Of a DNA stretch of 64,000 bases, positions 23,550 through 39,113 are shown one piece after another. Source of the stretch: Aureimonas sp. AU20 (GTDB lineage Bacteria; Pseudomonadota; Alphaproteobacteria; Rhizobiales; Rhizobiaceae); assembly GCF_001442755.1 (NCBI RefSeq), contig NZ_CP006367.1, positions 1,488,001-1,552,000 of the forward strand. Direction: 5' to 3'. Position numbers and translations under genes: made by a program. Position 1 is the first letter of the stretch. Each line of letters opens with the position of its first letter. The notes under the pieces are model-generated. The model did no database searches, was not told the DNA's origin, and was given only the letters and a program-made list of their open reading frames with translations.

Positions 23550-24497
23550 ATGCGCACATCCATTCTGTCCGCGCTCGCCCTGGGCTGCCTCATGGCCGGC
23601 GCGGCCGCGCCCGCCCTGGCCGAAGGGCAGCAGGACCTGATCAAGCCGGTCAGCAAGGAGCTGACCTTCGTCTTCATTCCGAAGGTCATCCATCCCTGGT
23701 ACGACGTGGTTCGGCAGGGCGGTCAGTACGCCGTGGACGAGTTCGCCAAGAGCGGCATCAAGATCAACATGATCTGGGACCAGCCGCCGCAGGCCGACGT
23801 CGCCGACCAGAACCAGCGCATCGAGGCCAATATCGGCCGCCATCCCGACGGGCTCGCCGTCGCCTGCCTCGACCAAGCCACCAATGTCCAATTGCTCGGC
23901 GAGGCCAAGCAGGCGGGCGTCAACACGATCACCTTCAACTCCTTCTGCTCGCCCGACTTCGCCTTCGTCGGTCAGAAGGACAGTTTCGGCGACGGGTTCG
24001 ACCTCGGCAAATATCTCGCCGACCATATCGGCGGCGAAGGCGAGGTCGGTATTCTCTCGGGCTCGCTGACGGCGACCGACCATGTCGAGCGCATCAAGGG
24101 CTTCAAGAAGGCGCTGGAAGCCTATCCCAACGTCAAGATCGTGTTCGAGCAGCCCGACGACGACGTGCTCGAGAACGCCGTTTCGCTGACCGAGAACGCG
24201 CTCCAGGCCCATCCCAATATCAAGGGCTTCTTCGGCTGCAACGCCTCCAACCCGATCGGCATCGCCCGCGCCGTCCAGAACGCCGGCAAGGCGGGCCAAG
24301 TGGCCGTGGTCGGCATGGACGATCTGCCCGAGGCTGTGGACTTCGTGAAGGAAGGCGTCATCACCGCGCTGAAGGCTCAGCGCCAGTGGGACATCGGCTA
24401 TTGGGCGGTGAAGTACATGGTCGCCATGAACGAGAACCACACGATCCCGATGGACCACAACACCGGCTCGCGCTTCATCACCAAGGACGCGATGTAA
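23550..24497 (+). CDS. Sugar ABC transporter substrate-binding protein
   Basis: A 315-residue periplasmic protein of the ribose/galactose-binding type (Peripla_BP_4) with signal peptide MRTSILSALALGCLMAGA, cleaved near ALA-EG. Family features are the FIPKVIHPWYDVVRQGG strand, CLDQATNVQLLGEAKQ and GFFGCNASNPIGIARA. It captures a sugar or polyol for the ATPase and permease that follow. A 12-bp hairpin follows the stop and probably keeps this cistron more abundant than the downstream ones. Confidence 0.92.
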   Translation: MRTSILSALALGCLMAGAAAPALAEGQQDLIKPVSKELTFVFIPKVIHPWYDVVRQGGQYAVDEFAKSGIKINMIWDQPPQADVADQNQRIEANIGRHPDGLAVACLDQATNVQLLGEAKQAGVNTITFNSFCSPDFAFVGQKDSFGDGFDLGKYLADHIGGEGEVGILSGSLTATDHVERIKGFKKALEAYPNVKIVFEQPDDDVLENAVSLTENALQAHPNIKGFFGCNASNPIGIARAVQNAGKAGQVAVVGMDDLPEAVDFVKEGVITALKAQRQWDIGYWAVKYMVAMNENHTIPMDHNTGSRFITKDAM

Positions 24498-24514
24498 CCG
24501 GAGACCCCGAGAGC

Positions 24515-24544
24515 GGGCAGGGCGCCGGCTGCGGCGCCCTGCCC
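24515..24544 (+). promoter_or_regulatory. Intercistronic hairpin after binding-protein gene
   Basis: A perfect 12-bp stem GGGCAGGGCGCC/GGCGCCCTGCCC with a 6-base loop and no U tract, between the binding-protein and ATPase cistrons. Such elements typically stabilise the upstream message or partly terminate. Confidence 0.75.
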
Positions 24545-24574
24545 GGCAGGCAAGGAGGAGGGAAAGGGTTCGCC

Positions 24575-26065
24575 ATGGATGCCATCGCCACCGCCTTCGA
24601 GGCGCGCAACGTGTCCAAGAGCTTCGGGGTCGTCCACGCGCTGCGCGGTGTTTCCGTCTCGATCCACCCCGGCGAGGTCCATGCCATTATCGGCGAGAAC
24701 GGCGCCGGCAAGTCGACCCTCATGAACATCTTCTGCGGCCGGCTGCGCCCGAGCGAGGGCGAGCTGCGCGTCAATGGCGTGGTGCAGCAGTTCCATTCGC
24801 CGGGCGAGGCGCAGCGCGCCGGCATCGCCATCGCGCCGCAGGAGATCAATCTCGTACCGGCGCTCACGGTCTGCGAGAACATCCTGCTCGGCGCCGAGAT
24901 CATGCGCGGCCCCGCCATCGACTGGAAGCGCACCCGCGAGGAAGCGCTGACCCATCTCCACGCCGTGGACGACACGATCGACGGCGTGGCGCGGGTGGAG
25001 ACCCTGTCCAAGGCGCAGCAGCAGCTCGTGCAGATCGCCCGCGCCGTCGCCACCAAGGCGCACATTCTGATCTTCGACGAGCCGACCGCCGCGCTCACCA
25101 ACCGCGAAACGGAAAAGCTCTACGCCTTCATCCGCCGCTTTCGCGACGGCGGCGGCTCGGTCTTCTACATCTCGCACCGGCTGGACGAGATCCTGATGCT
25201 GTCGGACCGCATCAGCGTGTTGCGCGACGGCGCCCATGTCGGCGAGATCGATCCGCGCCGCGCCACCAAGACCGACATGGTCTCGCTCATGGCGGGCCGC
25301 GAGGTCGCGATCTCGCACCACGTGCCGCGCCGGCTGGAAGACCGGCCCGTGGTGCTGAAGGTTTCCGGCCTCTCCCGCCACGGCGAGTTCGAGGAGGTGT
25401 CCTTCGAGCTGCACGAAGGCGAGGTGCTCGGCATGTCCGGTCTCATCGGCGCCGGGCGGACCGAGGTCGCCAAATGTATCTTCGGCCTGACGCGCGCGAA
25501 TGTCGGCACGGTCGAGGTCTTCGGCAGCGCCAAGCCCATTGCCGACCCCGCCGACGCCATCGCGCGCGGGCTGGTCTACCTGCCCGAGGAGCGCAAGCAG
25601 GAGGGCATCTTTCCGCTTCTCTCCATTGCCGAGAACATGACGATCGCGACCCTCGACCGCTTTCGCCGGCCGGCCTGGATGGATTTCGGCGCCATGGCCC
25701 GGACGGTGGACGACTATGTCGGGCGGCTGCGCATCAAGATCGGCTCGCCCACCGACCCGATCACCAGCCTGTCGGGCGGCAACCAGCAGAAGGTCATTCT
25801 CGGCCGCTGGCTCGCCAAGAACTCGCGCATCCTGATCTTGGACGAGCCGACGCGCGGCATCGACGTCGCCGCCAAGAGCGAGATCCAGGGCGTGCTGGAC
25901 GCGCTGACCGCGCAAGGCCTGTCGATCATCTACATCTCCTCCGAGCTCGAAGAGGTGCTGAACGTCTCCGACCGGATCGTCGTCATGCACGAGGGCCGGG
26001 TGAAGGGCGTGCCGCGCACCGAGGACATGACCCAGGAATCGCTTCTCCAGCTCGCCATGAGCTGA
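24575..26065 (+). CDS. Sugar ABC transporter ATP-binding protein (RbsA/MglA type)
   Basis: 496 residues with two fused ATPase domains. The first has Walker A GENGAGKSTLM and signature-like LSKAQQQLVQIARAVA with Walker B ILIFDEPTAALT. The second has signature LSGGNQQKVILGRWLA and Walker B ILILDEPTRGID, but its P-loop is degenerate (GLIGAGRTEVAKCIFG). This is the standard architecture for CUT2 sugar importers. AGGAGGAGGGAAAGG precedes the ATG; the same frame is open far upstream but antisense/overlapping, so that was rejected. Confidence 0.94.
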   Translation: MDAIATAFEARNVSKSFGVVHALRGVSVSIHPGEVHAIIGENGAGKSTLMNIFCGRLRPSEGELRVNGVVQQFHSPGEAQRAGIAIAPQEINLVPALTVCENILLGAEIMRGPAIDWKRTREEALTHLHAVDDTIDGVARVETLSKAQQQLVQIARAVATKAHILIFDEPTAALTNRETEKLYAFIRRFRDGGGSVFYISHRLDEILMLSDRISVLRDGAHVGEIDPRRATKTDMVSLMAGREVAISHHVPRRLEDRPVVLKVSGLSRHGEFEEVSFELHEGEVLGMSGLIGAGRTEVAKCIFGLTRANVGTVEVFGSAKPIADPADAIARGLVYLPEERKQEGIFPLLSIAENMTIATLDRFRRPAWMDFGAMARTVDDYVGRLRIKIGSPTDPITSLSGGNQQKVILGRWLAKNSRILILDEPTRGIDVAAKSEIQGVLDALTAQGLSIIYISSELEEVLNVSDRIVVMHEGRVKGVPRTEDMTQESLLQLAMS

Positions 26066-26137
26066 CGCTCCTGCGCGCCCCGGCCGGGATCGGCCTTGGC
26101 GCCTTCGCACCCGTTCCGCATCGAAAGGCATCGCGCC

Positions 26138-27130
26138 ATGACCAACATCGCCGCCGCCGGACAAACGCGCGCCCGGTCCGCGCCGCCCTCCCTCTGGTCG
26201 CGCTTCAAGGGCTGGGAGGCGAGCGGCATCCTGATCGCGCTCGGCGTCTTCGCGCTCGTCCTCTCGCTCGCCGCGCCGAACTTCCTTTCGGCCTACAATC
26301 TCACGGTCGTGGCCCGTGCCGCCGCCTTCGTCGGCCTCGTGGCGCTTGGCCAGACGCTGGTCCTGCTGCTCGGCGGCATCGATCTTTCGGTCGGCACCGC
26401 CGCCGGCCTGTCGGCCATCGTCGGCTCGCTGCTTTTGACGAAGATCGGTGTCCATCCCTATCTGGTGCTGCCGCTGGCCGCCGGCTTCGGGCTTTGCCTC
26501 GGCCTCGTGAACGGTTTCCTGATCGCCTATCTCCGGCTCAATCCGTTCATCGTGACGCTGGCCACCGGCGAGATCTTCGCCGGCCTCACGCTCGTCATCA
26601 CCGAGGGCTATCCGATCCGCCCGCTGGGCGCGCAGTTCCGCGTCTTCGGCCAGGGCGAACTCCTCGGCCTGCCGATCCCGGTCTGGTTCTTTCTGGTCTC
26701 GGCCGCGATCCTGATCTGGATGCTGCGCAACACGCGCTTTGGCCGCAACATCTTCGCCATCGGCGGCAATCGCGACGCGGCGGCGCTGGTGGGCATTCGC
26801 ATCCACCGCGTCGAGCTTCTGGTCTACGGTCTCGCCGGAATGTTCGCCGCGCTCGCCGGCATGCTCTATGCCAGCCGCATGGACGCCGGGCAGCCCTCGG
26901 TCGGCGAAGGCTGGATGCTGCAGGCGATCACCGCCGCGATCATCGGCGGCACGAGCCTTCGCGGCGGGCAGGGGACGATCGTCGGCACCGCGCTCGGCGC
27001 GCTGCTGCTCGCCATGCTCGCCAACGGCACGGTGCTGCTCAACGTCTCGGGCTTCTGGCAGCGCGTCATCGTCGGCCTCGTGGTTCTCGTCGCCATCCTC
27101 GTCGATCTCGCCCGCCGGCACCGGACCTGA
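26138..27130 (+). CDS. Sugar ABC transporter permease (RbsC type)
   Basis: A 330-residue inner-membrane protein of the CUT2 permease family with 8-10 hydrophobic helices. Landmarks are LLGGIDLSVGTAAGLSAI, LNPFIVTLATGEIFAGL, FAIGGNRDAAALVGI and AIIGGTSLRGGQGTIVGTAL. The start MTNIAAAG is 72 bp after the ATPase gene. With the two preceding genes it makes a complete importer. Confidence 0.93.
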   Translation: MTNIAAAGQTRARSAPPSLWSRFKGWEASGILIALGVFALVLSLAAPNFLSAYNLTVVARAAAFVGLVALGQTLVLLLGGIDLSVGTAAGLSAIVGSLLLTKIGVHPYLVLPLAAGFGLCLGLVNGFLIAYLRLNPFIVTLATGEIFAGLTLVITEGYPIRPLGAQFRVFGQGELLGLPIPVWFFLVSAAILIWMLRNTRFGRNIFAIGGNRDAAALVGIRIHRVELLVYGLAGMFAALAGMLYASRMDAGQPSVGEGWMLQAITAAIIGGTSLRGGQGTIVGTALGALLLAMLANGTVLLNVSGFWQRVIVGLVVLVAILVDLARRHRT

Positions 27131-27262
27131 CCCTTGGCCTGGCGCGCTCCTGTCCCGTCCGGCCCCGGCCCAAATCTCGGCCAAGGCGGGGCGGGACTGT
27201 CCCCCGCGAGGGAAGACGGTCTATCTCCGCTGGAGAGGTTCTCCTCCAGCGAAAGGCAGATC

Positions 27263-28201
27263 GTGTCGTCCACCGAGAGCGAAGACATCAAGGCCCGGGC
27301 CGCCTGGCTCTACTACATGGAAGGCCTGACGCAGGATCAGGTCGCCAAGATCCTCAACCTGACGCGCACCCGCGTCCTGCGCATGCTCGCCTCGGCGCGC
27401 GAGGACGGCACGGTGCAGATCCGCGTCACCGCGCCCATCGCCCGCTGCGTCAAGCTGGAGCGCGAGGTGCGCGCGCGCTTCGACATGGAGCGCGTCGTGG
27501 TCGTGCCCGACCCGCAGGACGAGGCGCGCCTGCCGGCGATGATCGGCGCGGCGCTCGGCCAGATGCTGCCCGATCTCCTGGCCGAGGGCATGACGATCGG
27601 CCTTGGCTGGGGCCGCACGCTCTCCTCCTCGCTGCCCTTCATCGAGCCGCTGGGCTACAGCCGCTCCACCACCATCTCCATGCTGGGCGGGCTGACCCAT
27701 GTCAGCCTCTCCAACCCGTCCGAATTCGCCTGGCGCTTCGCTGACCGGCTCGGCGGCGAATGCTACATGCTGGCCTGCCCGGTCTTCGCGCCCGACGGCG
27801 CGACGCGCGAAGCGCTGCTCGCCCATCGCGGCATCGCGGAAGTTTTCCGGCGCACCGACCGGCTGGATCTCGCGATCCTCAGCGTCGGCGATTTCACGCG
27901 CGATTCCATCTTTGTCCAATACGGGCTCCTGGAGCGCGGCGATCTGGACTCGCTGGAGCGCGCGGGCGCGGTGGGCGACGTGCTCTGCCGCTTCATCGAC
28001 GCCGAGGGGCGGGTTCTCGACCATTCCGTCAACGACCGTGTGCTGGCGGTGGACCCGCGCCGTCTGGCGCAGGCGCGCCGAACGGTTCTCGCCTCCGGTG
28101 GCTGGTCGAAATTCGCCGCCATCCGCGCGGCGATCACGCTGCTCCATCCCGAAATCCTCGTCACCGACGAGCGCACGGCGGAGCGGCTTCTCGACACGTA
28201 G
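27263..28201 (+). CDS. SorC/EryD-like sugar-responsive transcriptional regulator 1
   Basis: About 312 residues: an N-terminal HTH (RAAWLYYMEGLTQDQVAKIL, recognition helix around TRTRVLRMLASARE) and a SorC sugar-phosphate-binding domain (AEGMTIGLGWGRTLSSS, MLGGLTHVSLSNPSEFAWRF). The start is uncertain: GTG at 27263, with AAAGG just upstream, gives a normal family length, while the frame is open to a TTG at 27134. EryD of Brucella, a relative, represses a polyol operon and is released by an intermediate. It follows the importer and precedes the DRL-like operon, and probably binds the 32-bp dyads nearby. Confidence 0.88.
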   Translation: MSSTESEDIKARAAWLYYMEGLTQDQVAKILNLTRTRVLRMLASAREDGTVQIRVTAPIARCVKLEREVRARFDMERVVVVPDPQDEARLPAMIGAALGQMLPDLLAEGMTIGLGWGRTLSSSLPFIEPLGYSRSTTISMLGGLTHVSLSNPSEFAWRFADRLGGECYMLACPVFAPDGATREALLAHRGIAEVFRRTDRLDLAILSVGDFTRDSIFVQYGLLERGDLDSLERAGAVGDVLCRFIDAEGRVLDHSVNDRVLAVDPRRLAQARRTVLASGGWSKFAAIRAAITLLHPEILVTDERTAERLLDT

Positions 28202-28280: not shown

Positions 28281-29603
28281 ATGACCATTCTTCAGGTGGG
28301 CCTTGCGGCCGAGCTTCAGGCCTATGCGGACAAGCACGGCCCGGTGACGGTGGGCCTCGCCGGTTCGGGCCAGATGGGCACCGACATGGTGGTGCAGTTG
28401 ACGCTGATGCCAGGCGTCCGGCTCGGGGCGCTGTCGGAGCTGAACATCGCCGGAGCCGAAGAGGCGCTGCGCATGGCCGGCTCGCCCTTCGTGCGCGCGG
28501 CCGGCGTCAACGACATCGACCGCGCCATCGAGGGCGGCAAGGTCGCGCTGACCGAGGACTACAAGGCGCTCTGCGCCTCGGGCCATGTGGATGTGGTGAT
28601 CGACGCGACGGGCAATCCCAATGTCGGCACGCTGATCGCGCTGGAGGCCTTTCGCAACGGCAAGCATGTCGTGATGCTGAATGTCGAGGCCGACATCACG
28701 ATCGGCCGCTTTCTGCGCGAGGAGGCCGCCAAGGCCGGCGTGGTCTATACGGGCGCGGCGGGCGACGAGCCGGCGGCGACGATCGAGATCGTCGGCTTCG
28801 CCCAGTCGCTCGGCTTCGACATCGTCTGCGCCGGCAAGGGCAAGAACAACCCGCTGAAATTCGACGCGACGCCCGACGCCTACGAGGAGGAAGCGCGCCG
28901 CCGCAACATGAACGCCCGCATGCTGGTGGAGTTCGTGGACGGCTCCAAGACCATGATCGAGATGGTCGCCGTCGCCAACGCCACCGGGCTTGTGCCGGAC
29001 GTTCCCGGCATGCACGGCCCGGCCGCGACGCGCGACGAACTCGCCACCGTGCTCTGCACGAAGGAGGATGGCGGCGTTCTGTCCGGGACCGGCAAGGTCG
29101 ACTACTCCATCGGCAAGGGCGTCGCGCCCGGCGTCTTCTGCGTGGTCAAGCCCCGGCACGAGCGCGTCCTGGAGCGCATGAGCGATCTGAAGATGGGCCC
29201 CGGCCCCAACTACACGATCTTCCGCCCCTATCACCTGACTTCGCTGGAAGTGCCGCTTTCGGCGGTGCGCGCGGTGGTGAAGAAGGCGCCCGACATGCAG
29301 CCGGCCGAGCGACCGGTGGCCGAGTGCGTGACGCTCGCCAAGCGCGATCTCAACCCGGGCGACACGCTCGGCAAGATCGGCGAATACGACTATCGCGGCT
29401 TCGCCATGACCTGGGAAGGCGCGCGCGACGAGGGCGCCCTGCCGCTGGGCCTTGCCGAGCGGGCCAAGGTCATCCGCCCGATCAAGGCCGGCGAGAAGCT
29501 GACCTATGCCAATTGCCAGCCGGACGACAGCCTCGTCATCACCCAGATCCGCCAGCGTCTCGACCAGGCCGACAGCCGCTTCGCGTCCAGCGCGGCGGCC
29601 TGA
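28281..29603 (+). CDS. DRL-like NAD(P)-dependent oxidoreductase with SAF domain
   Basis: A 440-residue protein with an N-terminal homoserine-dehydrogenase-like NAD(P) fold ([12 protein letters not shown] at about 24-35, then [20 protein letters not shown] and [12 protein letters not shown]), a middle catalytic part ([34 protein letters not shown]) and a C-terminal SAF domain (about 350-420). As I recall it, this layout matches Brucella abortus DRL, which replaces DXR and interconverts 1-deoxyxylulose 5-phosphate and 2-C-methylerythritol 4-phosphate. Here it heads an operon with an acetoin-dehydrogenase-like complex, which argues for a catabolic job on such a phosphate or a similar branched compound. 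GGGAGG precedes the ATG. Confidence 0.75.
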
Positions 29604-29626
29604 CGGGACGGGAGGAGGAGAAGCCC

Positions 29627-30691
29627 ATGTCCGCCTTGCCCCAATCGGCGCCATCAGCCGAAGACGTCGCAGACAATGCCGCCCGCGCTCCCGGCGCGCG
29701 GGGTGGTGACAACAAGCCCTTCGCCTTCCGGCACTTTCCGCCCGAGGTGCTGAAGGACGCGCTGCGCCAGATGCACCTGATCCGCCGTTTCGAGGAGGGG
29801 GCGGAGGAAAGCTACACGCGCGGCCTCATCCACGGCACGATGCATCTTTCGATCGGGCAGGAAGCCTCGGCCGTCGGCGCCTGCCTGGCGCTGACCGACA
29901 CGGATCAGATCACCTCCACCCATCGCGGCCATGGCCATTGCATCGCCAAGGGCGCCGAGGTCGGGAAAATGTTCGCCGAGTTCTTCGGCAAGGAGACGGG
30001 CTATTGCCGGGGGCGCGGCGGCTCCATGCACATTGCCGACGTGTCCAAGGGCAATCTGGGCGCCAACGGCATCGTGGCGGGCGGCCTGCCCATCGCGGTC
30101 GGCGCGGCGCTTTCCATGAAGATGCAGAAGCGGCCGGACGTGGTCGTCTCCTTCTTCGGCGACGGCGCCAACAACGAGGGCGCCTTCCACGAGGCGCTGA
30201 ACATGGCGTCCATCTGGAAACTGCCGGTCATCTTCGTCTGCGAGAACAACAAATACGGCATGTCGGTCTCGACCGAGCGCTCCACGGCGGTGAAGAATAT
30301 CGCCGAGCGGGCCGTGGCCTACGCCATGCCAGGCGTCACCGTGGATGGCAATTCGCTGTCCGACGTGTCGGAGGCGCTGGTCACCGCGATCGAGCGGGCG
30401 CGGGCGGGCCAGGGGCCGAGCCTCGTCGAGTGCAAGACCTACCGCCATCGCGGCCATTCCAAGAGCGATCGCAACCGCTATCGCACCAAGGAGGAGATCG
30501 ACGACTGGATTTCCAAGGACCCGATCGGCCGGTTCGAAGCCGAGATGTTGGACTACGGCGTGGTGGATGCCGGCGAGATCGAGGCGATCCGCGAAAGTGT
30601 CGAGCGCGAGATCGCGGACGGGATCGAGTTCGCCAAGAACTCCCCCTCGCCCGACGTCAACGAGGCGACGCGCGACGTCTACACGGCCTGA
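29627..30691 (+). CDS. Thiamine-diphosphate dehydrogenase E1 alpha (acetoin/pyruvate dehydrogenase type)
   Basis: A 354-residue E1 alpha subunit. The thiamine diphosphate motif starts [18 protein letters not shown] and ends with VCENN, and [20 protein letters not shown] and the loop [15 protein letters not shown] carry the usual phosphorylation-loop pattern. Together with E1 beta it cleaves a 2-oxo acid or an acyloin and passes the acyl group to lipoamide. The first 30 residues are polar and not conserved. GGGAGGAGGAG precedes the ATG, 23 bp after the DRL-like stop. Because the E2 is of the acetoin type, an acyloin substrate is more likely than pyruvate. Confidence 0.9.
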
Positions 30692-30834
30692 GCGCCGTTT
30701 TCGGCAAGGCGGCGCGGCCCGCCCTGCCACCTGAGCAAGGCACCTGAACGACGAGCCGGGTTGCGGGCGCGTGAACGAGGTTTCACCCCGACCCCCAAGC
30801 TCCCACGGCCGGCGAGCCGACAAGGAATCCAGGG

Positions 30835-31848
30835 ATGAGCGAGACCATCGACGTGGCCGGCAGCCGCGAGCTTTCCTATGCCCAGGCGATCCAGGAAGCG
30901 ATCGCCATCGCCATGGAGGAGGACCCGCGCGTCTTCATCATGGGCGAGGATATCGGCGTCTATGGCGGCGCCTTCCAGGTGACCGGCGATCTCGTCCATC
31001 GCTTTGGCGCCGACCGCGTGATCGACACGCCGATCGCCGAACTCGGCGGCGCGGGCGTCGCGGTGGGCGCGGCGCTGACCGGCATGAAGCCGATCTACGA
31101 GTTCCAGTTCTCCGACTTCGCGACGCTCGCCATGGAGCAGATCGTCAACCAGGCGGCCAAGCTCCGCTTCATGCTGGGCGGCAACGTTTCGGTGCCGCTC
31201 GTCATGCGCTTTCCCGCCGGCTCCGGCACGGGCGCGGCGGCCCAGCACAGCCAGAGCCTGGAGGCCTGGCTCGGCCATGTGCCGGGGCTCAAAGTTCTCC
31301 AGCCGGCGACCCCGCACGACGCCAAGGGCATGCTGCTCGCCGCGATCGACGATCCCGACCCGGTCATGATCTTCGAGCACAAGATCCTCTACAAGATGAA
31401 GGGCGTGGTGCCGGAAGGGCGCTACACCGTGCCGATCGGCAAGGCGCTGGTTCGCCGCGAGGGGGGGGACGTAACGGTCGTCGCCTCCGCCATCATGGTG
31501 CATAAGGCGCTGACGGCCGCCGAGGAACTGGCCAAGGACGGGATCGACGTCGAGGTCGTGGACCTTCGCACGATCCGGCCGATGGACCGTGAGACGATCA
31601 TCGCCAGCGTCATGAAGACGGGCCGTCTCGTCTGCGTCTACGAGGGCGTCAAGACGCTCGGCATCGGCGCCGAGATTTCCGCCATGATCGCGGAAAGCGA
31701 GGCCTTCGACTATCTCGACGCGCCGGTGATCCGGCTGGGCGGCGCGGAATCGCCGATCCCCTACAATCCCGAACTCGAAAAGGCGGTCGTGCCGCAGGTG
31801 CCGGACATCGTTCAGGCGGTGCGCGCGCTGGCCCGCCGGGAGCGCTGA
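30835..31848 (+). CDS. Thiamine-diphosphate dehydrogenase E1 beta
   Basis: A 337-residue E1 beta subunit with the expected [38 protein letters not shown] (Glu of the ThDP site) and [20 protein letters not shown] segments. It completes the alpha2beta2 heterotetramer with the preceding gene. The 140-bp gap from E1 alpha is longer than other gaps in this operon but holds no obvious terminator. It lies 4 bp from the E2 start. Confidence 0.92.
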
Positions 31849-31852
31849 CGCC

Positions 31853-33283
31853 ATGCCGACCGAAGTGATCCTGCCCAAGGTCGACATGGACATGGCGACC
31901 GGCCAGATCTCGCGCTGGTTCTACAAGGAAGGCGACGCCATCAAGAAGGGCGAGCCGCTTTTCGAGATCGAGACCGACAAGGCAGCGATGGAAGTGGACG
32001 CGCCGGCCTCCGGCACGCTGCGCAACGTCACGGGCGCGGAGGGCGTGGACATCGCCGTCGGCTCGCCCGTCGCCTGGATCTATGCCGAGGGCGAGGCAGC
32101 CGAGCCGGCCGCGCCTGTCGCCGATGCCGGCACGCCGAAGACGGTCGGCCCCGATCCCGATGTCGAGACCGACTCCAAGCCCGTCGCTGCAAGCGAAGCC
32201 CGCGCCTTGGTGAATGGCTCGGGCGAGACGGCCAAGACCTGCTGCGCCAAGGACCGGCCGGCGGACGGCGAGCGCCGGGGCGTTCGCGCTACGCCGCTCG
32301 CCCGGCGTCTGGCGCGCCAGTTCGGCCTCGATCTCACTGCCATCGCCGGCCAAGGCCCGCTCGGCCGCATCGGGCGCGAGGATGTGGAAGCGGCCGCCGC
32401 GAAGGCCCAGGCGAAGCCGGTCGAGGGGCTGGCGGAGGGGAGGGCCGAGGCGCCTGCACCCGCCATGGCTCGCGCGCCCGCGCCGCAGATTCAGCCCGCC
32501 GCGCCTTTGCGCGCGACGACCACCGCCCACACGCCGCTCCATGTGGCGCGGTTGCGCGAAGGGGAGGGCACGCCGATCGTGCTCCTCCATGGCTTCGGCT
32601 CGGAAAGCGCCAGCTGGCGGCCGCTGCTCGCCGAGTTCGCGGGCGGCAATCCGGTTCTGGGCCTCGACCTTCCCGCCCATGGCGGCTCGGTGGCGCGGGG
32701 CGCGGCGGGGTTCGACGCGCTTGTGTCGGGCGTGGAGGAAACGCTGGTCGCGCTCGGCCTCGCGTCCTGCCACCTCGTCGGCCATTCGCTGGGCGGCGCG
32801 GTCGCCACCGCCGTCGCGGCCGGGCTTTCGGTCGATACGCGCTCGCTGATGCTGCTGGCGCCCGCCGGCTTCGGACCGGATATCGACACCGCCTTTGCCG
32901 AAGGCTTCGCCCGAGCAGTGGACGAGGCGCCGATCCGCTCCTGGCTGCGGCATCTCGTGTCCGATCCCGCCGCGATCTCGGACGGGTTCGTGCGCGCCAC
33001 GGCGCGCGGCCGGGCGGACGGCGTGCAGGCCGAGGCGCAGACGCGGCTCGTCGGCTCACTCTTCTCCAACGGCGCGCAGCATTTCACGGTGCGCGACCTC
33101 GTCGACTCGCTCGCCATGCCGGTGAAGATCGTGGCGGGCGCCGAGGACCGCGTCGTGCCGGTGCGCCACTTCACCGGGCTCCCCGGCACACTTGCCTTGC
33201 ATGTCTTCCCCCGCACCGGCCATATGCCGCAATTCGAGCAGCGGGCGGCGGTGGCGCGCCTCTTGCAGGAGTTGACACGCTGA
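31853..33283 (+). CDS. Acetoin-dehydrogenase-type E2: lipoyl domain plus alpha/beta hydrolase
   Basis: 476 residues in three parts: an N-terminal lipoyl domain (ETDKAAMEV, lipoyl Lys43), a peripheral subunit-binding segment ([20 protein letters not shown], about 143-182), and from about residue 240 an alpha/beta hydrolase ([10 protein letters not shown], nucleophile elbow VGHSLGGA near residue 311, final His in [11 protein letters not shown]). The normal acyltransferase domain with HxxxDG is absent. This hydrolase-ended E2 is the AcoC type of acetoin dehydrogenase complexes, which transfers an acetyl group to CoA. No E3 gene is present, so the general lipoamide dehydrogenase must serve. Confidence 0.9.
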
Positions 33284-33300
33284 TCTCCAGAAGGATGCCG

Positions 33301-33960
33301 ATGGCCGAGTTCGATTGCATCATCTTCGACTGCGACGGCGTCCTGGTCGACAGCGAAATCCTGGCCCGCCGCGCCATGCAGTCGGTGTTCCGGCAGGCCG
33401 GGATCGAGGTGACGGCGGAGATGGTCGACAGTTTCGTCGGCATGAAATTCGCCGACATCCTGAACGGCATCGAGGCGCGCACGGGGCAGCGCATCGCGGA
33501 CGACGACCATCCCCGCTTCTGGACGGAGACCAAGGCCCTCTTCACCGATCACCTCCGGCCCGTGCCGGGGGTGGTGGCGTTTCTGGAGGGGTCTACCATC
33601 CAGCGCTGCGTCGCCTCGTCCTCGGACCACGAGCGCATCCGCCACAGCCTGGGGGTGACTGGGCTCGCGGAGTTTTTCGAGCCGGGCGCCATCTTCTCGT
33701 CGCATGACGTGACGCGGGGCAAGCCCGAGCCCGACCTCGTTCTCCACGCGGCCCGCACCATGGGCGCCGACCCCGCGCGCTGCCTGGTGATCGAGGATTC
33801 CCGCTTTGGGGTGATGGGCGCCAAGGCAGCCGGCATGGCGGCCTATGGCTTTCTCGGCGGCGCGCATCTCCTCGCCAATTCCGGCGACGCCCTGCGCGAG
33901 GCCGGCGCCGATTTCGTCGCCCGCAGCTACGAAGAGATCGCCGCCTTCATGGCGGGCTGA
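33301..33960 (+). CDS. HAD-superfamily phosphatase (subfamily IA)
   Basis: A 219-residue HAD hydrolase related to beta-phosphoglucomutase and phosphoglycolate phosphatase. Motif I is IFDCDGVLVDSE (two Asp), motif II is CVASSSDHERI, motif III is the Lys in RGKPEPDLVL and motif IV is VIEDSRFGVMGAKAAGM, with a helical cap between I and II. ATG at 33301 is six bases after AGAAGG; 33295 is an alternative. It is the last gene of the DRL/E1/E2 operon and probably acts on one of its phosphorylated intermediates or a by-product. Confidence 0.9.
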   Translation: MAEFDCIIFDCDGVLVDSEILARRAMQSVFRQAGIEVTAEMVDSFVGMKFADILNGIEARTGQRIADDDHPRFWTETKALFTDHLRPVPGVVAFLEGSTIQRCVASSSDHERIRHSLGVTGLAEFFEPGAIFSSHDVTRGKPEPDLVLHAARTMGADPARCLVIEDSRFGVMGAKAAGMAAYGFLGGAHLLANSGDALREAGADFVARSYEEIAAFMAG

Positions 33961-34041: not shown

Positions 34042-35988
34042 TCAAATCTCCGTCACGCATTTCTTGGCGCGTGGGATGGAGGCGGGGCTCATGGACAGTT
34101 CAGTCACGCCGTTTTCCACGAAGAAGGGAATGAGGTCGGGCCGGGCCGCCGCCTCGCCGCAGACGCCGATCCAAATGCCGGCCTCGCGCGCGGCCTGCGC
34201 TGCCTGGCGGATGGCGGCGAGAACGGCAGGGTGCTCGGCGCGGTTGAGCTTGGCGACGCGCGGATTGAGCCGGTCTGCGGCCATGACATATTGGGTGAGA
34301 TCATTCGTGCCGACGGAGAAGAAGTCGACCTCCCGCGCGATCTCGGCCGCCAGGAACACGGCCGCCGGCGTTTCCACCATCACACCGAGCTCGAAGGGCC
34401 CATGCGCGTTGCCGGCCGCATCCAGCTCCGCCCGGCACTCCTCGATCAGCGCCCGGACGGCCCGGACCTCGCCGACATCGGCGATCATCGGCAACAGGAT
34501 TTTGACGTTGCCGACCGGCGAGGCGCGCAGAAGCGCGCGCAGCTGCGGCTTGAACACGTCCGGCCGCTCCAGGCACATGCGCACGCCGCGCCAGCCGAGG
34601 AAGGGGTTGTCCTCGTGCTCGAAATCGATACCGGCCACCGGCTTGTCGCCGCCGATATCGAGCGTGCGGATCACCACGGGATAGGGCGCGAAAGCCTCGG
34701 CCAGCTTGGTGTAGGTCTCGGCCTGCTCGTCCTCGCCGGGCAGCGTGCGCCGCTCCATGAACAGGAACTCGGTGCGGAACAGGCCGACGCCCATGGCGCC
34801 CGCCTGTCGCGCGCCGTCGATCTCGGCCAGCGAGCCGAGATTGGCGGCGATCTCCACCCGCCGTCCGTCGCGGGTGCGGGGCTCCACGGTGCGATAGGCC
34901 TCGAGACTCCGGCGCTCCTCCGCCTCGCGCGCGATGGCCGATTGCAGGCGCGCGGCGCTCTCGGCGTCGGGATCGAGCACGACCTCGCCGCTGGCCCCGT
35001 CGAGGCCGACCGTGCGCGCCGCCTTCAACTGCTCCTCGGACGCGGAAAAGCCGAGCACGGCGGGAATGCCGTGGGCGCGCGCCATGATCGCGACATGGCT
35101 GGTCGCCGCGCCCTTGCGGCAGACGATGCCGGCAATGTCGGCGAGCGTAGCCTTAGCCAGATCCAGCGCGGCGATCTCGTCCGCCAAGATCACCGAGCCC
35201 TTCGGCATGTCGGCCAGCGTCAGGTCCTTGGCGCCGATCAGCGTCAGCGCAATGCCGCGCGTCACGCTGCGAATGTCCTCGGCACGGGCGCGAAGGTAGG
35301 GGTCCGCCAGCGCTTCGAAGCTCGCGGCGATCGCGCGGCCCGCCTCCACCACGGCGCTCGGCGCGTCGCGCCCCTGGCCGATCGCGGTCTCGACGCTCCC
35401 GATGAACTCGGCGTCCTCCGCCACGTCCACCAGCGCGTCGATGATCGCCGCGTCGTCGCGTTTCAGGCCCGGCCGCGCCTTGGCCTCGCGGAAGGACTGG
35501 ACGGTGGCGGCGAGGGCCGCGCTGTATCTGGCGCGCTCGGCCTCGCGCTCCCCGGCCGGCACGTCGCGCGGCTGGATGTCGAGCGCGGCGGGAAAAAAGG
35601 CGAAGGCCGGGCCGATCGCGGTGCCCTCGCTGGCGGCGATGCCGCGAGAGCCGGAGGGGGCGGGTTTCGCGGCGGGAGCGGGCGCCGTCGACGCCTGCCC
35701 GGCGTCGCGAGCGGGCAAGGCGACGTCGCCGGCATCGGGCGTCTGGAGAAAGGTCGAGAGCGCCGAGACGGCGTCGGCGGCGTCCTCGCCGTCGGCGCGC
35801 AGGGTCGCCTCGTCGTTTTCCTTCACGCCGAGCAGCATGAGCTTCACCGCGCTCTTGGCGCTGGCGCCCCGGCCGTTGCAGCGGATTTCGATGTCGCTGG
35901 AAAAGCTCTTGGCGAGCTTGACGAATTGCGTGGCCGGGCGGGCGTGCAGCCCCTCGTGCACGCGCACGACGACGGATCGCTCGATCAT
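34042..35988 (-). CDS. PTS phosphoenolpyruvate-protein phosphotransferase fused to HPr
   Basis: A 648-residue fusion. Residues 1-90 form HPr (VRVHEGLHARPATQFVKLA with His15 as phosphocarrier), an Ala/Pro-rich linker follows at about 90-125, then enzyme I: the phosphohistidine domain with GAATSHVAIMARAHGIPA and the PEP-binding barrel with FRTEFLFMERRTLP, VMVETPAAV and GTNDLTQY, and WIGVCGEAAARPDLI. It takes phosphate from PEP to HPr and on to EIIA. It is the last gene of the glucitol-type PTS operon. The ATG at 35988 has AAGGACG upstream and was preferred over a GTG at 35997. Confidence 0.93.
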   Translation of the reverse strand: MIERSVVVRVHEGLHARPATQFVKLAKSFSSDIEIRCNGRGASAKSAVKLMLLGVKENDEATLRADGEDAADAVSALSTFLQTPDAGDVALPARDAGQASTAPAPAAKPAPSGSRGIAASEGTAIGPAFAFFPAALDIQPRDVPAGEREAERARYSAALAATVQSFREAKARPGLKRDDAAIIDALVDVAEDAEFIGSVETAIGQGRDAPSAVVEAGRAIAASFEALADPYLRARAEDIRSVTRGIALTLIGAKDLTLADMPKGSVILADEIAALDLAKATLADIAGIVCRKGAATSHVAIMARAHGIPAVLGFSASEEQLKAARTVGLDGASGEVVLDPDAESAARLQSAIAREAEERRSLEAYRTVEPRTRDGRRVEIAANLGSLAEIDGARQAGAMGVGLFRTEFLFMERRTLPGEDEQAETYTKLAEAFAPYPVVIRTLDIGGDKPVAGIDFEHEDNPFLGWRGVRMCLERPDVFKPQLRALLRASPVGNVKILLPMIADVGEVRAVRALIEECRAELDAAGNAHGPFELGVMVETPAAVFLAAEIAREVDFFSVGTNDLTQYVMAADRLNPRVAKLNRAEHPAVLAAIRQAAQAAREAGIWIGVCGEAAARPDLIPFFVENGVTELSMSPASIPRAKKCVTEI

Positions 35989-36026
35989 GGGTCTCACGTC
36001 CTTGCAGGCGGAAAGAAGGGCGGCGC

Positions 36027-36407
36027 TCAGCCGGTGATGGCGATCTCGGCGCCGGGCTGGAGAGCGCTGGCGAGCGCCGCGCCGTCCACCGCGCTGGCGG
36101 CGATCTCGCCGGGCCGCTCGGGTGCCTCCGCGCCGTTGAAATTGATGACGACATGGCCGATGTCGCGCACCTTGGCCCAGGCGAGCGGGCCGATGCCGGT
36201 CAGCGTGGCTTCCACCGAGCCGACGCGGATCGCCGCGCCCGGCGAGGGGGCCTCGACGCTCGGCTCCTCCGCGACGCGATGCGTCACAGAGACTTCGGCG
36301 AGTTCGGGCGGGGCGCCGTCCGCGAACAGGATCAGGACGCCGCCTTCCAGAAGGTCGGCCACGTCCGGGCCGATGGCGGTGACGAGCGTGCGAAAGCGTG
36401 TGGTCAT
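36027..36407 (-). CDS. srlB: PTS glucitol/sorbitol-type EIIA
   Basis: A 126-residue cytoplasmic EIIA of the Gut family. The segment VLILFADGAPPELAEVSVTHR includes the His expected to carry phosphate from HPr, and GIGPLAWAKVRDIGHVVINF is the conserved C-terminal strand region. Length agrees with SrlB. It lies between the EIIB and HPr-EI genes in the same orientation. Confidence 0.9.
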   Translation of the reverse strand: MTTRFRTLVTAIGPDVADLLEGGVLILFADGAPPELAEVSVTHRVAEEPSVEAPSPGAAIRVGSVEATLTGIGPLAWAKVRDIGHVVINFNGAEAPERPGEIAASAVDGAALASALQPGAEIAITG

Positions 36408-36529
36408 GAAGGGCTCTCCGAAGGAGGGGAGGCCGGGCGCCGTCTCATTCGCGCCGGCTCCGAAAGGGGGCGGGCCGGGGCGCTTGGGCGCCGGCCCGCA
36501 AGGCTTGGCATCAGAGTCGCGCTAGCGCG

Positions 36530-37576
36530 TCAGAGCAGGAAGCTCGCGCCCCAGGCGATGAGAACCGAGACCGGCCCCATGATCTGGCGGCTGATCAAAA
36601 CGGCGGGCACGCCGATCTCGATCGTCTTGGGCTTGGCCTCGCCGAGGGCCAGGCCCACCGGCACGAAGTCGCAGCCGACCTGCGTGTTGTAGGCAAACAG
36701 CGCCGGCAGGGCCATGGCAGGGGCGATCGTGCCGTTGGCGATCTGCGGTCCGATGATGGCGACGCCGATCACCTGCGCGATCACCGCGCCGGGACCGAGG
36801 ATCGGCGACAGGAAGGGCAGGCCGCAGATCGCGGATAGAACGATGAGGCCGAGGATGTTGTTGGCGAGCGGCCCCATGGGCGCGGCCAGAAGATCGCCGA
36901 CGCCGGTATAGAGGATGATGCCGATCAGCATGGTCACGAAGGCCATGAAGGGCAGGACGTTGCGGATCACCATGTCGATGGTGCGCCGACCGGCATTGAA
37001 GAAGATGCCGACGGCCCGGCCCATGACGCGGCCGACGCTGGTGATGGCGCCGATCAGCCCGCCCTGGTTCGAGGCGGGCATCGCGCTGCCGAGCGCCGCG
37101 GTCGCCTCGGCCGGCGAGGAGAAGGAGCGCGGCGCGGCGGCCGGCTGGCCCATGCCGGCGGGCGAAGCCGCGCCTTGGCCGCTTGGCGCGGCGGCGGCGC
37201 TATCGGCCGGCGCCATGTCGTCGGTGGTCACGCCCGAGACGTAGATGTCCTCGGTGATGAACTGCGCGAGCGGCCCGCTCTGGCCGACCGGCATGATGTT
37301 GATGGTTGGGATGCGCTTGCGGGCATAGACGCCGCAGCGCGCCGTGCCGCCGCAGTCGATAACGACGGCCGCCATCTCGCTTTCCAGCGGCGGGTTGCGG
37401 AACCCGTCCACCACGGTGGCGCCGGTCAGTTCGGCGAGCCGCTGCGCGACGGCGGGGATGCCGCCGCCGGTGACGGCGACGATCTTGTCGCGCTCGGGCG
37501 TCGGCTGGATCACCAGCGGGCCGCCCCAGCCACCCTTGCCCTGCGAAACGCGAATGGCATTGAAACTCTTGGCCAT
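36530..37576 (-). CDS. srlE: PTS glucitol/sorbitol-type EIIB (with C-terminal membrane domain)
   Basis: A 348-residue SrlE-type protein. The N-terminal EIIB domain has VVIDCGGTARCGVYARKR (Cys75 and Cys81, one of them the phosphocysteine), then INIMPVGQSGPLAQFITEDI. An Ala/Pro-rich linker follows (about 120-165). The C-terminal part is a membrane domain with PFMAFVTMLIGIILYTGVGD and GCDFVPVGLALGEAKPKT. It hands phosphate to the incoming polyol and forms part of the channel with EIIC. Confidence 0.93.
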   Translation of the reverse strand: MAKSFNAIRVSQGKGGWGGPLVIQPTPERDKIVAVTGGGIPAVAQRLAELTGATVVDGFRNPPLESEMAAVVIDCGGTARCGVYARKRIPTINIMPVGQSGPLAQFITEDIYVSGVTTDDMAPADSAAAAPSGQGAASPAGMGQPAAAPRSFSSPAEATAALGSAMPASNQGGLIGAITSVGRVMGRAVGIFFNAGRRTIDMVIRNVLPFMAFVTMLIGIILYTGVGDLLAAPMGPLANNILGLIVLSAICGLPFLSPILGPGAVIAQVIGVAIIGPQIANGTIAPAMALPALFAYNTQVGCDFVPVGLALGEAKPKTIEIGVPAVLISRQIMGPVSVLIAWGASFLL

Positions 37577-37601
37577 GATCCGATCCTTTCCTCGCCCGGC
37601 C

Positions 37602-38456
37602 CTAGAGCGTCACGCCTTCGCGCTGCGCTAGAAAGCGCGTGACGCGTTCGGTGACGATGCCCTTGAGAAGGATCACGACGATGCCGACGATGAAGTAGTA
37701 GATGGCGAGATTGATGTGGTAGCCGGGCGGCACAACGCCCCGGTTTTCCAGCTCCAGAAGCGCCACCAGAACGCCGCCCCAGACGAAGTATTCGCCGGCA
37801 TTGGCATGGGGAAACAGGCCGAGGATCGGGTGGCAGAAGGACACGGCCGAGTCGTAGAAGGCCGGCTTGTGCTTCTCTTCCAGGAACGTGCCGAACGTGT
37901 AGGCCATCGGGTTGGTGAGGAAGAACATGGCGAGCACCGGCAGGACGGTGTAGCGCGTCAGCGCGATGCGCCCCGCCTTGCGGGCGAGCCCGTGAACCCG
38001 CTCCTCGCCGATCATGCCGGTCAGCGCGTAGAAGGCGGTCATCAGCACCACCAGCGTCGGGATAATGCCGGTGACGAAGCCGAGAAACACCTCGCCGCCC
38101 TTCTGGAAGACGCCGATGAAGTGGCGCCCGATCGTCGCCAGCCAGCCGAGCTGCTCCTCCTTGTTGCTGGTGGAGAGCTGCTGAACGCGCTTGGCATATT
38201 CTTCCGCCGAGATCGGGCCGCCGGCCGTGGCGGGAACGGTGGCCTGCGCGGTGCCGGCGGCGCCGGGATCGGTGGCCTGCGCGAGCAGCGTCGCGCCGTG
38301 ATGGGCGCTGTCGCCAACGCTGCCGGCAACGGCGTGATGGGCCGCAAGATCATGGACCGGGGCCAGCATGGCGGGGTCGCTCAAGGCATGGGCGTAGGCG
38401 GCGCCGTGAGCGGCGAGATCGGCCACTCCTTGCGCCATCATCATGGTCAGCATCAT
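37602..38456 (-). CDS. srlA: PTS glucitol/sorbitol-type EIIC, N-terminally extended
   Basis: About 284 residues. From residue about 110 onward it matches SrlA (FIGVFQKGGEVFLGFVTGII, FFLTNPMAYTFGTFLEEKHK, CHPILGLFPHANAGEYFVWG). The first 110 residues are an Ala/His/Thr-rich extension (DLAAHGAAYAHALSDP, DLAAHHAVAGS) that E. coli SrlA, at 187 residues, lacks. The start is ATG 38456 or 38453 after GGGAGGGG. It is the polyol-conducting channel. The extension looks disordered and may be a misjudged start only if translation begins much later, where no good ribosome site was found. Confidence 0.88.
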   Translation of the reverse strand: MMLTMMMAQGVADLAAHGAAYAHALSDPAMLAPVHDLAAHHAVAGSVGDSAHHGATLLAQATDPGAAGTAQATVPATAGGPISAEEYAKRVQQLSTSNKEEQLGWLATIGRHFIGVFQKGGEVFLGFVTGIIPTLVVLMTAFYALTGMIGEERVHGLARKAGRIALTRYTVLPVLAMFFLTNPMAYTFGTFLEEKHKPAFYDSAVSFCHPILGLFPHANAGEYFVWGGVLVALLELENRGVVPPGYHINLAIYYFIVGIVVILLKGIVTERVTRFLAQREGVTL

Positions 38457-38570
38457 TGGCCCCTCCCGGCCTTGTTCGCCCAAAAGGGCATGTCATGTCT
38501 CGGCTGGCGGAAACCCGGCGCGCCACTCCCGCGCGTCAGGGCTCCCGGCGATGGATAGTCGAGGAAAAGC

Positions 38571-39014
38571 TCAGACGGCGGCGGGGCGCAGGCGCGCCGT
38601 GGCTTTGGGCGAAGCGGACGCCGCGCCGCCGCCCCGGCGCACCGTCTCGACCTGGGCGAGGGCTGTCAGCAGCGCCTGCGAGAACGGGTCTTTCGGCCGC
38701 AACGCGGCTTGGCTGCGCGCTTCGCCTGGGCTGAGGCCCTCCAGCCTTTCCACCCGGCGCGCCTTGGCGAAGACCGTTCGGCCCTCGATGGTGACGACGC
38801 GGCGCAGCGTCTCGTCCGGGGCGACCACCAGTAGCACGATCGCGCCGCGCTTCAGCCCGCCGCCGCCCTTGCCGACGCCCATCCAGCCGTCCGACCATTC
38901 GCTCGACAATTGCTGGAACGCCGCGCGGTAGCGGCGGATCTGGACGAGCGTTCCCCAGCACTGGAGAAGCCAAGCCAACGCCAGAAGCGCCAGCACGCCT
39001 TGCCAACCCCACAT
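38571..39014 (-). CDS. gutM: Glucitol operon activator GutM-like protein
   Basis: A 147-residue protein with one N-terminal membrane helix (MWGWQGVLALLALAWLLQCW) followed by a cytoplasmic domain with the GutM pattern (WMGVGKGGGGLKRGAIVLLV, RVERLEGLSPGEA). In E. coli GutM activates the sorbitol operon; a membrane-attached role in PTS control is likely. ATG 39014 follows GGGAGG at seven bases, and an ATG at 39047 has none. It is the first gene of the PTS operon, just downstream of a promoter embedded in a 32-bp dyad. Confidence 0.87.
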   Translation of the reverse strand: MWGWQGVLALLALAWLLQCWGTLVQIRRYRAAFQQLSSEWSDGWMGVGKGGGGLKRGAIVLLVVAPDETLRRVVTIEGRTVFAKARRVERLEGLSPGEARSQAALRPKDPFSQALLTALAQVETVRRGGGAASASPKATARLRPAAV

Positions 39015-39056
39015 TCGAAAACCTCCCGACGACGCTCTCCCTTGCATCGTTGACCG

Positions 39057-39093
39057 ATCATGAACATTTGACTTCTATGGTGTCAAGATGTTC
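39057..39093 (-). promoter_or_regulatory. PTS-operon promoter within SorC-type operator, copy C
   Basis: On the minus strand the dyad is GAACATCTT-N14-CAAATGTTC (39062-39093). A perfect -35 TTGACA (39081-39086) lies inside it, and a -10-like CATGAT (39057-39062) follows after 18 bases at its edge. A repressor bound here would block the PTS promoter. The regulator gene ends 21 bp upstream. Confidence 0.7.
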
Positions 39094-39113
39094 GTTCGCT
39101 TGGCGTAGAGTTG

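Follow-up and report, generated by a model that had tools for sequence, protein, structure and literature searches.

The DXR-II operon and the adjoining phosphotransferase system

Analysis of a 64,000-nucleotide stretch of Aureimonas sp. AU20 (contig NZ_CP006367.1, positions 1,488,001 to 1,552,000 of the forward strand; hereafter the window) centred on five consecutive genes at 28281..33960, which encode a DXR-II (DRL) type oxidoreductase, both subunits of a thiamine pyrophosphate (TPP)-dependent E1 component, an E2 component and a phosphatase. DXR-II enzymes interconvert 1-deoxyxylulose 5-phosphate (DXP) and 2-C-methylerythritol 4-phosphate (MEP). A whole glucitol-type phosphotransferase system (PTS) with an HPr-Enzyme I (EI) fusion, GutM and a regulator (34042-40079) lies convergent and directly downstream of the five-gene operon; it was absent from the initial annotation and is added here. 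The cluster comprises the following genes.

27134..28201, + strand: SorC/DeoR-type regulator with a sugar-binding domain (PF04198, 187 bits), 79 bp upstream of the DXR-II gene
28281..29603, + strand: DXR-II (DRL) type oxidoreductase with the NAD-type Rossmann motif GALSELN (PF21135, match to 3upl, conserved residues); proposed to convert MEP to DXP
29627..30691, + strand: TPP-dependent E1 alpha subunit (PF00676, 302.6 bits; E1 clade; GHSKSD loop); proposed to act in DXP cleavage
30835..31848, + strand: TPP-dependent E1 beta subunit (PF02779 and PF02780; NF006667, 400.4 bits, cut-off 321)
31853..33283, + strand: E2 of the AcoC type with lipoyl (motif ETDKA), E3-binding and alpha/beta-hydrolase (nucleophile motif GHSLG) domains (NF011457, 360.1 bits, cut-off 307)
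33295..33960, + strand: HAD-type phosphatase (PF13419, 90.1 bits); proposed sugar-phosphate overflow phosphatase
34042..35997, - strand: HPr-EI fusion of a sugar PTS (PF00381, PF05524, PF00391, PF02896; HPr motif GLHARPA, EI motif ATSHVA)
36027..36407, - strand: PTS glucitol-type IIA (PF03829, 82.2 bits)
36530..37576, - strand: PTS glucitol-type IIB (NF049924, 439.9 bits, cut-off 400)
37602..38483, - strand: PTS glucitol-type IIC (NF049923, 186.7 bits, cut-off 150)
38571..39047, - strand: GutM (PF06923, 67.3 bits)
39114..40079, - strand: second SorC/DeoR-type regulator (PF04198, 175.2 bits)

The initial annotation had proposed a single operon of five genes, and all five do lie on the plus strand with gaps of 23, 143, 4 and 11 bp, although the last gap reaches the 17 bp given there only if the HAD gene starts at 33301. 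Its assignments of E1 alpha, E1 beta, a hydrolase-ended E2 and a HAD phosphatase were borne out by the domain and model matches; the top NCBIfam model of the HAD product is a 6-phosphogluconate phosphatase (139.1 bits, under the cut-off of 211). The equivalog models for glucitol-type IIB and IIC are both passed by the window proteins.

The description of the first product as an oxidoreductase with the layout of Brucella DRL also held. The protein matched PF21135 (DRL_cat) with 225.8 bits (cut-off 27) and the Brucella DRL structure 3upl over 424 residues (E 7e-140), while the DXR-I domain PF02670 was not among its matches. All of K191, K193, T229, H250, R320 and Y322 (Brucella numbering), named as important DXR-II residues in the accessible text of PMC3847144, are kept, and its database counterparts from Aureimonas sp. 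N4 and A. ureilytica show 96% identity. Proteins collected for comparison were classed by identity to the nearest of four references, which gave 138 DXR-IIs (at least 44%) and 17 DLO-like relatives (below 36%), the latter label being our own assignment from low identity and lost residues and all 17 rows coming from the family sample described below. In a tree from which two of the 138 rows were omitted as too short and in which five of the 17 DLO-like rows served as outgroup, the window oxidoreductase fell within the DXR-II clade, apart from the DLO-like rows (SH-aLRT 100).

Distribution and linkage of DXR-II genes

A DXR-II was called linked when E1 alpha and beta genes or at least two glucitol-type PTS (gut) genes lay within 9.5 kb, in the stretch available. 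The initial annotation had raised the presence of a normal dxr elsewhere in the genome, and the result was divided: the host genome has no PF02670 match to DXR-I, but a second DXR-II is encoded at C1:3672477-3672968, alongside DXS and IspF elsewhere in the genome. This second protein shares 297 of 437 residues with the window protein and has no PTS or E1 neighbour within 20 kb; its second Rossmann strand ends in STSK, that of the window protein in SELN. An unlinked DXR-II with an STSK, STSR or ASR motif was found in all 21 same-genus genomes, and a window-type DXR-II in 11 of them, each time with SELN and with E1 alpha, E1 beta, E2, HAD and EI genes adjoining. Nine of these 11 loci also have gut genes beside the DXR-II, and the other two stretches end inside EI. 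Since the unlinked copy occurs in 21/21 and the window type in 11/21 genomes, the former is core to the genus and the cluster accessory. The unlinked copy is the likelier biosynthetic enzyme, making MEP for isoprenoids. The possibility, allowed for in the initial annotation, that the window gene is the only DXR of its genome and simply biosynthetic was rejected, given the second, unlinked DXR-II of NADP type. A transketolase homologue (44-46% identical to a Ligilactobacillus one) was observed near the unlinked host gene and most same-genus unlinked DXR-IIs.

The family was sampled evenly with 61 genomes. Of these, 34 carry only unlinked DXR-II and no DXR-I, 20 carry DXR-I and no DXR-II, and four (G000, which is the host, G028, G040 and G059) have one linked and one unlinked DXR-II without DXR-I. 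Of the remaining three, G018 has a linked DXR-II only, G029 (1890 contigs) combines DXR-I with a linked DXR-II, and one small genome is without either; DXR-I together with an unlinked DXR-II was found in 0/61. A sub-cut-off match of G034 to the DXR-I model (21.4 bits), which falls in the region of its DLO-like gene, was disregarded, and DXR-II matches below about 93 bits (G041:C20, G042, G050:C8) were left out of the locus set; flanks of 6 kb or more on each side were available for 38 of the family's 45 DXR-IIs. The reciprocal comparison gave the same association: E1 alpha of the window type (identity of 75% or more, the next best being 50%) is present in all six genomes that have a linked DXR-II and in no other, and gut IIB in five genomes, always at the linked DXR-II locus. 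The sixth linked locus, that of G029, has an ABC transporter and a PfkB kinase instead of the PTS, and so do plasmids of Sinorhizobium meliloti Rm41 and Agrobacterium CFBP7129. The cluster is also carried by a plasmid of Paracoccus versutus DSM 17099 (L033).

Two of these genomes bear directly on the activity of the linked enzyme. In G028, which is without DXR-I, the linked copy at the PTS/E1 cluster and the unlinked copy are identical at 425 of 427 positions, and in G018, where IspF is present and DXR-I absent, the linked copy is the sole DXR-II. Because of this near-identical pair and this linked-only copy, DXR-IIs of the linked type should be able to make MEP; and from the kept residues, the tree and the near-identical copies in a genome without DXR-I, we strongly infer that the window enzyme is a DXR-II. 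The G028 pair also records recent copying, from a catabolic to a biosynthetic place or the reverse.

Beyond the family, a genome scan contributed 79 named loci, those that ranked highest among at least 566 confirmed stretches in similarity to a Priestia-led alignment, and plasmid loci were hand-picked, namely nine of the 60 DXR-II matches listed (88 records) and 12 of the 60 E1 matches listed (434 records). DXR-II beside a PTS, or beside a carrier and sugar kinase, often with E1/E2, recurs in five phyla, and the combination of DXR-II, gut-PTS, SorC-type regulator and E1 alpha, E1 beta and E2, often with E3, was found in Bacillota, Chloroflexota, Actinomycetota and Spirochaetota. Among all 138 DXR-IIs, E1 alpha and beta genes lie beside 51, at least two gut genes beside 62, and either beside 74; the corresponding figures for the 101 flanked by 6 kb or more on each side are 39, 50 and 56. 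Gut genes accompany 33 of these 39 flank-complete E1-linked DXR-IIs, a PfkB or FGGY kinase replaces them in three, and three have neither in view; an FGGY kinase and an MFS carrier lie near the DXR-II in Priestia and Ectobacillus. None of the 17 DLO-like relatives is linked (0/13 among the flank-complete ones). Chance linkage of DXR-II with E1 and PTS genes was rejected on these counts and on the reciprocal E1 alpha and IIB test in the family.

Of the 79 genomes behind the scan loci, 50 were searched for IspF and DXR-I, chiefly ones represented by long stretches, and 38 of these 50 loci are linked. DXR-I is also present in 34 of the 50, while nine are without both IspF and DXR-I: Virgibacillus subterraneus, Lentibacillus halodurans, four Enterococcus species and Chloroflexi OHK40, Rubrobacteraceae and Spirochaetaceae assemblies, some of the nine being metagenome assemblies and possibly incomplete. 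Eight of these nine carry a linked DXR-II (PTS and/or E1), the unlinked exception being Enterococcus sp. 669A. On these counts, a biosynthetic role of DXR-II is unlikely in many hosts.

A putative route from methylerythritol to acetyl-CoA

In a tree of 63 E1 alpha and beta pairs, 51 of the 52 pairs from DXR-II loci and an E1 from a Clostridioides difficile plasmid formed a single clade (support 97/82), separate from the clade of the five acetoin-type E1s (100/99); four of these five have acetoin or butanediol names adjoining, and the Klebsiella one (L189) was assigned by clade alone. The remaining pair, from a Hakubella DXR-II locus, was unplaced, and its loop residue is also Lys. The active-site loop reads GHS[K/R]SD in 52/52 members of the DXR-II-linked clade (50 with Lys, L034 and L078 with Arg), GHFEGD in 5/5 acetoin-type E1s, HSM in both pyruvate dehydrogenase (PDH) references and HHV, HYV and HSE in three others; the window E1 alpha has GHSKSD and not the acetoin-type GHFEGD. 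Position alpha31 of the aligned fragment is likewise Thr in 52/52 clade members and Phe in the five acetoin-type and two PDH E1s. By the offset that we infer, the loop Lys, which is Lys279 of the window E1 alpha and residue 239 of the aligned fragment, aligns one residue after human Ser264, whose loop in human PDH becomes ordered on binding of thiamine diphosphate according to the available part of PMC10216297, and a basic residue near the substrate channel would fit a phosphorylated substrate. Against the PDH model TIGR03182, the window E1 alpha scored 384.5 bits, just under the cut-off of 393.85, the two PDH references (the host's other E1 alpha at C1:2472044 and L195) scored 513 and 439.1 bits, and two acetoin-type E1 alphas 320.5 and 323.7 bits. 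An identity of the window E1 as acetoin or pyruvate dehydrogenase was rejected on the basis of clade, loop and these scores. The separate clade and the basic loop residue suggest instead that E1/E2 cleaves DXP, in support of the retro-DXS cleavage put forward in the initial annotation.

Two E1 loci fall outside this pattern of linkage. The C. difficile plasmid locus (L187) holds a SorC-type regulator, an E1 of the DXR-II-linked clade, E2 and E3, with no DXR-II in the stretch. A Rubrobacter indicoceani plasmid (L193) carries E1 alpha, E1 beta, a lipoyl protein, a sugar ABC transporter and GlpD together with a zinc dehydrogenase, with no DXR-II in 9.7 kb, and perhaps encodes a related acyloin route fed by GlpD.

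The direction of the reductoisomerase step was approached through the cofactor motif. An acidic followed by an aliphatic residue at the end of the second Rossmann strand was scored as presumably NAD-type, in keeping with the general behaviour of Rossmann folds. This motif is found in 73/74 linked, 5/5 kinase-only, 6/40 unlinked and 8/17 short-flank DXR-IIs. Across eight independent pairs, 3.7 on average differed in the expected direction and none in the opposite one (sign test, median p 0.125). Taken together, the gene partners, the NAD-type motif and the genomes without an IspF or DXR-I match suggest that DXR-II works oxidatively in the operon, from MEP to DXP, as the initial annotation had proposed.

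We consider it probable that the cluster is catabolic and runs the first two MEP-pathway steps in reverse, from methylerythritol through MEP and DXP to acetyl-CoA and glyceraldehyde 3-phosphate, each reaction, direction and substrate being predicted from gene content, families, linkage, clades and residues. The glucitol-type PTS (HPr-EI, IIA, IIB, IIC) would import and phosphorylate a branched C5 polyol, most likely 2-C-methyl-D-erythritol, yielding MEP, which DXR-II would oxidise with NAD+ to DXP. The TPP-dependent E1 would then split DXP, an acyloin phosphate, releasing glyceraldehyde 3-phosphate and leaving the acetyl group bound to lipoate. E2 would transfer this group to CoA and E3 reoxidise the lipoate, so that overall DXP, CoA and NAD+ give acetyl-CoA and glyceraldehyde 3-phosphate. 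No E3 gene was found in the cluster (the genome was not searched for one), so the cell's general E3 presumably serves; many relatives have their own E3 gene in the locus. The DXR reaction is described as reversible in the accessible text of PMC13001223, and oxidative, CoA-dependent removal of DXP would pull it. The SorC/DeoR-type regulator presumably senses a sugar phosphate, and the HAD protein may relieve sugar-phosphate stress. Growth on 2-C-methylerythritol, the food named in the initial annotation, is plausible and the weakest step of the scheme, as it depends on what a polyol PTS placed before an MEP/DXP enzyme must deliver.

The genes upstream of this core may feed a second substrate. 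The plus-strand gene run begins with an ABC transporter (23550-27130) followed by the regulator (27134-28201), and a divergent side module lies further upstream.

19460..20431, - strand: PfkB sugar kinase, side module (PF00294, 125.1 bits)
20494..22095, - strand: GlpD-like FAD dehydrogenase, side module (PF01266 and PF16901)
22097..23131, - strand: zinc alcohol dehydrogenase (ADH), side module (PF08240 and PF00107)
23550..24497, + strand: probable periplasmic sugar-binding protein of a ribose-type ABC transporter (from its translation and 73-76% identical genes at L039, L041 and L197)
24575..26065, + strand: sugar ABC transporter ATPase (top NCBIfam models AraG, XylG and RbsA, each below cut-off)
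26096..27130, + strand: ABC permease of ribose/arabinose type (PF02653, 149.1 bits)

The putative binding protein had no NCBIfam match at 1e-60; its three homologues adjoin DXR-II/E1/E2 genes and are annotated there as substrate-binding proteins. The top NCBIfam match of the zinc dehydrogenase is scyllo-inosose 3-dehydrogenase, below cut-off. Some genomes of the genus and some rhizobial plasmids carry the side module and ABC transporter together with the cluster, and a PfkB kinase lies near the regulator and DXR-II in several same-genus genomes. Speculatively, the ADH/GlpD-like/PfkB/ABC module feeds a second, chemically related C5 polyol into DXP, for example another 2-methyltetrol or a 1-deoxypentitol. 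A TonB-dependent haem/haemoglobin-type receptor was also observed at 17197-19401 (TIGR01786, 416.7 bits).

Several observations weigh against the proposed methylerythritol route. The side module and the HAD protein are not needed in it, and the PTS models score as glucitol-specific, so another polyol is possible. Gut genes without E1 alpha and beta within 9.5 kb accompany 23 of the 138 DXR-IIs (Listeria, Enterococcus, the Bacillus pumilus group and others, some on short stretches, with E1 genes just beyond the limit in L050 and L084), so that cleavage may be encoded elsewhere or the route differ, and the Ligilactobacillus (L. salivarius) and Domibacillus loci hold fructose-6-phosphate aldolase and transketolase genes. 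The E1 references are few, with two PDH and three other E1s on long branches. The NAD-motif contrast is tied to phylogeny and relatedness explains much of it; an NAD-type DXR-II is moreover seemingly the sole kind of DXR in G018, G028, G038 (88% complete) and G051, so the motif does not forbid biosynthesis. As to linkage, 39 of the 45 DXR-IIs in the family sample are unlinked, and the linked fraction in the scan is no population estimate, since loci were ranked by likeness to the linked Priestia protein. Finally, seven of the 50 scan genomes have IspF without DXR-I, and DXR-II may be biosynthetic there.

The best-surviving alternative, which we regard as unlikely, is degradation of a different polyol or deoxy-sugar, in which DXR-II oxidises another polyol phosphate, rearranged or not, to an acyloin phosphate that E1/E2 cleaves, the MEP/DXP conversion being a related biosynthetic activity of the family. 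The glucitol-type scores of the PTS and the co-travelling ADH, GlpD-like, PfkB and ABC module would suit it, as would the Rubrobacter plasmid, whose E1 substrate may arise without DXR-II; against this, the DXR-II residues are kept, and the nearly identical copies in G028 and the linked-only enzyme of G018 point to real DXP/MEP activity.

Salvage for biosynthesis appears improbable. Here the PTS would import 2-C-methylerythritol to supply MEP for isoprenoids, and E1 would act as an alternative DXP synthase, for which the host's lack of DXR-I and the chemistry of PDH could be cited: in the available part of PMC3424233, pyruvate and glyceraldehyde are converted to 1-deoxyxylulose by purified PDH, and DXP is formed in vivo by aceE mutants, with altered PDH E1. 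The same chemistry is also a precedent for the DXP cleavage proposed above. However, the host has DXS and an unlinked DXR-II, DXR-I is present anyway in the 34 scan genomes mentioned above, eight of the nine genomes without IspF and DXR-I have PTS and/or E1 genes beside DXR-II, and a lipoyl-domain E2, often with E3, points to acetyl-CoA rather than to DXP synthesis.

An ordinary acetoin or pyruvate dehydrogenase operon next to DXR-II by chance is very improbable: although the E2 passes the NCBI acetoin-dehydrogenase model, the E1 alpha comes nearer the PDH cut-off than two acetoin-type E1 alphas do, and the zinc dehydrogenase, despite its below-cut-off scyllo-inosose match, has the domains of a superfamily to which 2,3-butanediol dehydrogenase belongs, five phyla show this pairing, the references of acetoin and PDH type differ from the window E1 in clade and loop, and the window type of E1 alpha occurs in no family-sample genome without a linked DXR-II.

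Relation to known systems

The proposed methylerythritol route resembles the acetoin dehydrogenase complex AcoABC-L in its acyloin-cleaving E1, its AcoC-type E2 with a hydrolase domain and its proposed product acetyl-CoA. It differs in the separate E1 clade, in the loop Lys/Arg for Glu and the Thr for Phe at alpha31, and in the DXR-II, PTS and SorC-type regulators present at the locus. With the glucitol/sorbitol PTS operon (srl/gut) the cluster has IIA, IIB, IIC and GutM in common; none of the four PTS loci checked has a gene annotated as sorbitol-6-phosphate dehydrogenase (no dedicated genome search was made), and DXR-II apparently replaces the polyol-phosphate dehydrogenase of that operon.

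The erythritol (ery) and apiose/apionate catabolic systems likewise handle small or branched polyols or sugars with kinases and sugar-binding regulators, and erythritol use involves a GlpD-like dehydrogenase, but to our knowledge neither pathway includes a DXR-II or an acyloin-cleaving E1/E2. Among the papers listed in searches of the open-access literature, none was seen to describe a methylerythritol catabolic pathway, most subscription papers lying outside those searches; the protein families are known, and the pathway as a whole appears to be new. Plants make and release methylerythritol. If the route is real, it would be a new catabolic pathway by which carbon from the MEP pathway re-enters central metabolism, with probable importance in soil and on leaves, and the glucitol-PTS, acetoin-, pyruvate- and homoserine-dehydrogenase labels on such loci may mislead.

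Brucella DRL (PDB 3upl, 3upy; PMC3847144) shares with the window enzyme its fold, PF21135, the six residues and the clade, and differs in its cofactor motif, SARR in the structure sequence against the NAD-type SELN. DXR-II is treated as biosynthetic, from DXP to MEP, in the accessible text of PMC3847144 (Carretero-Paulet 2013), whereas the window enzyme lies in a catabolic-looking cluster; the same text asks how a non-homologous second reductoisomerase arose in bacteria that already had DXR-I, and reports an active DXR-II from Chloroflexus aurantiacus, a mevalonate user. We lean towards the view that DXR-II originally served, as an NAD+-linked enzyme, in a widespread catabolic route for 2-C-methylerythritol (at least five phyla; PTS or kinase to MEP, then DXP, then acetyl-CoA and glyceraldehyde 3-phosphate), and was repeatedly recruited to isoprenoid synthesis with a shift to the NADP type and loss of DXR-I. 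The linked Chloroflexota loci (e.g. L073 and L077) would fit this answer. It does not account for Finegoldia and Anaerococcus, which PMC3847144 places in Class E; the DXR-II of Peptoniphilus (L114) is unlinked with the motif SSRR. If DXR-II is catabolic in origin, redundancy with DXR-I was never the selective reason for it, and its scattered distribution and its presence beside DXR-I would both be explained.

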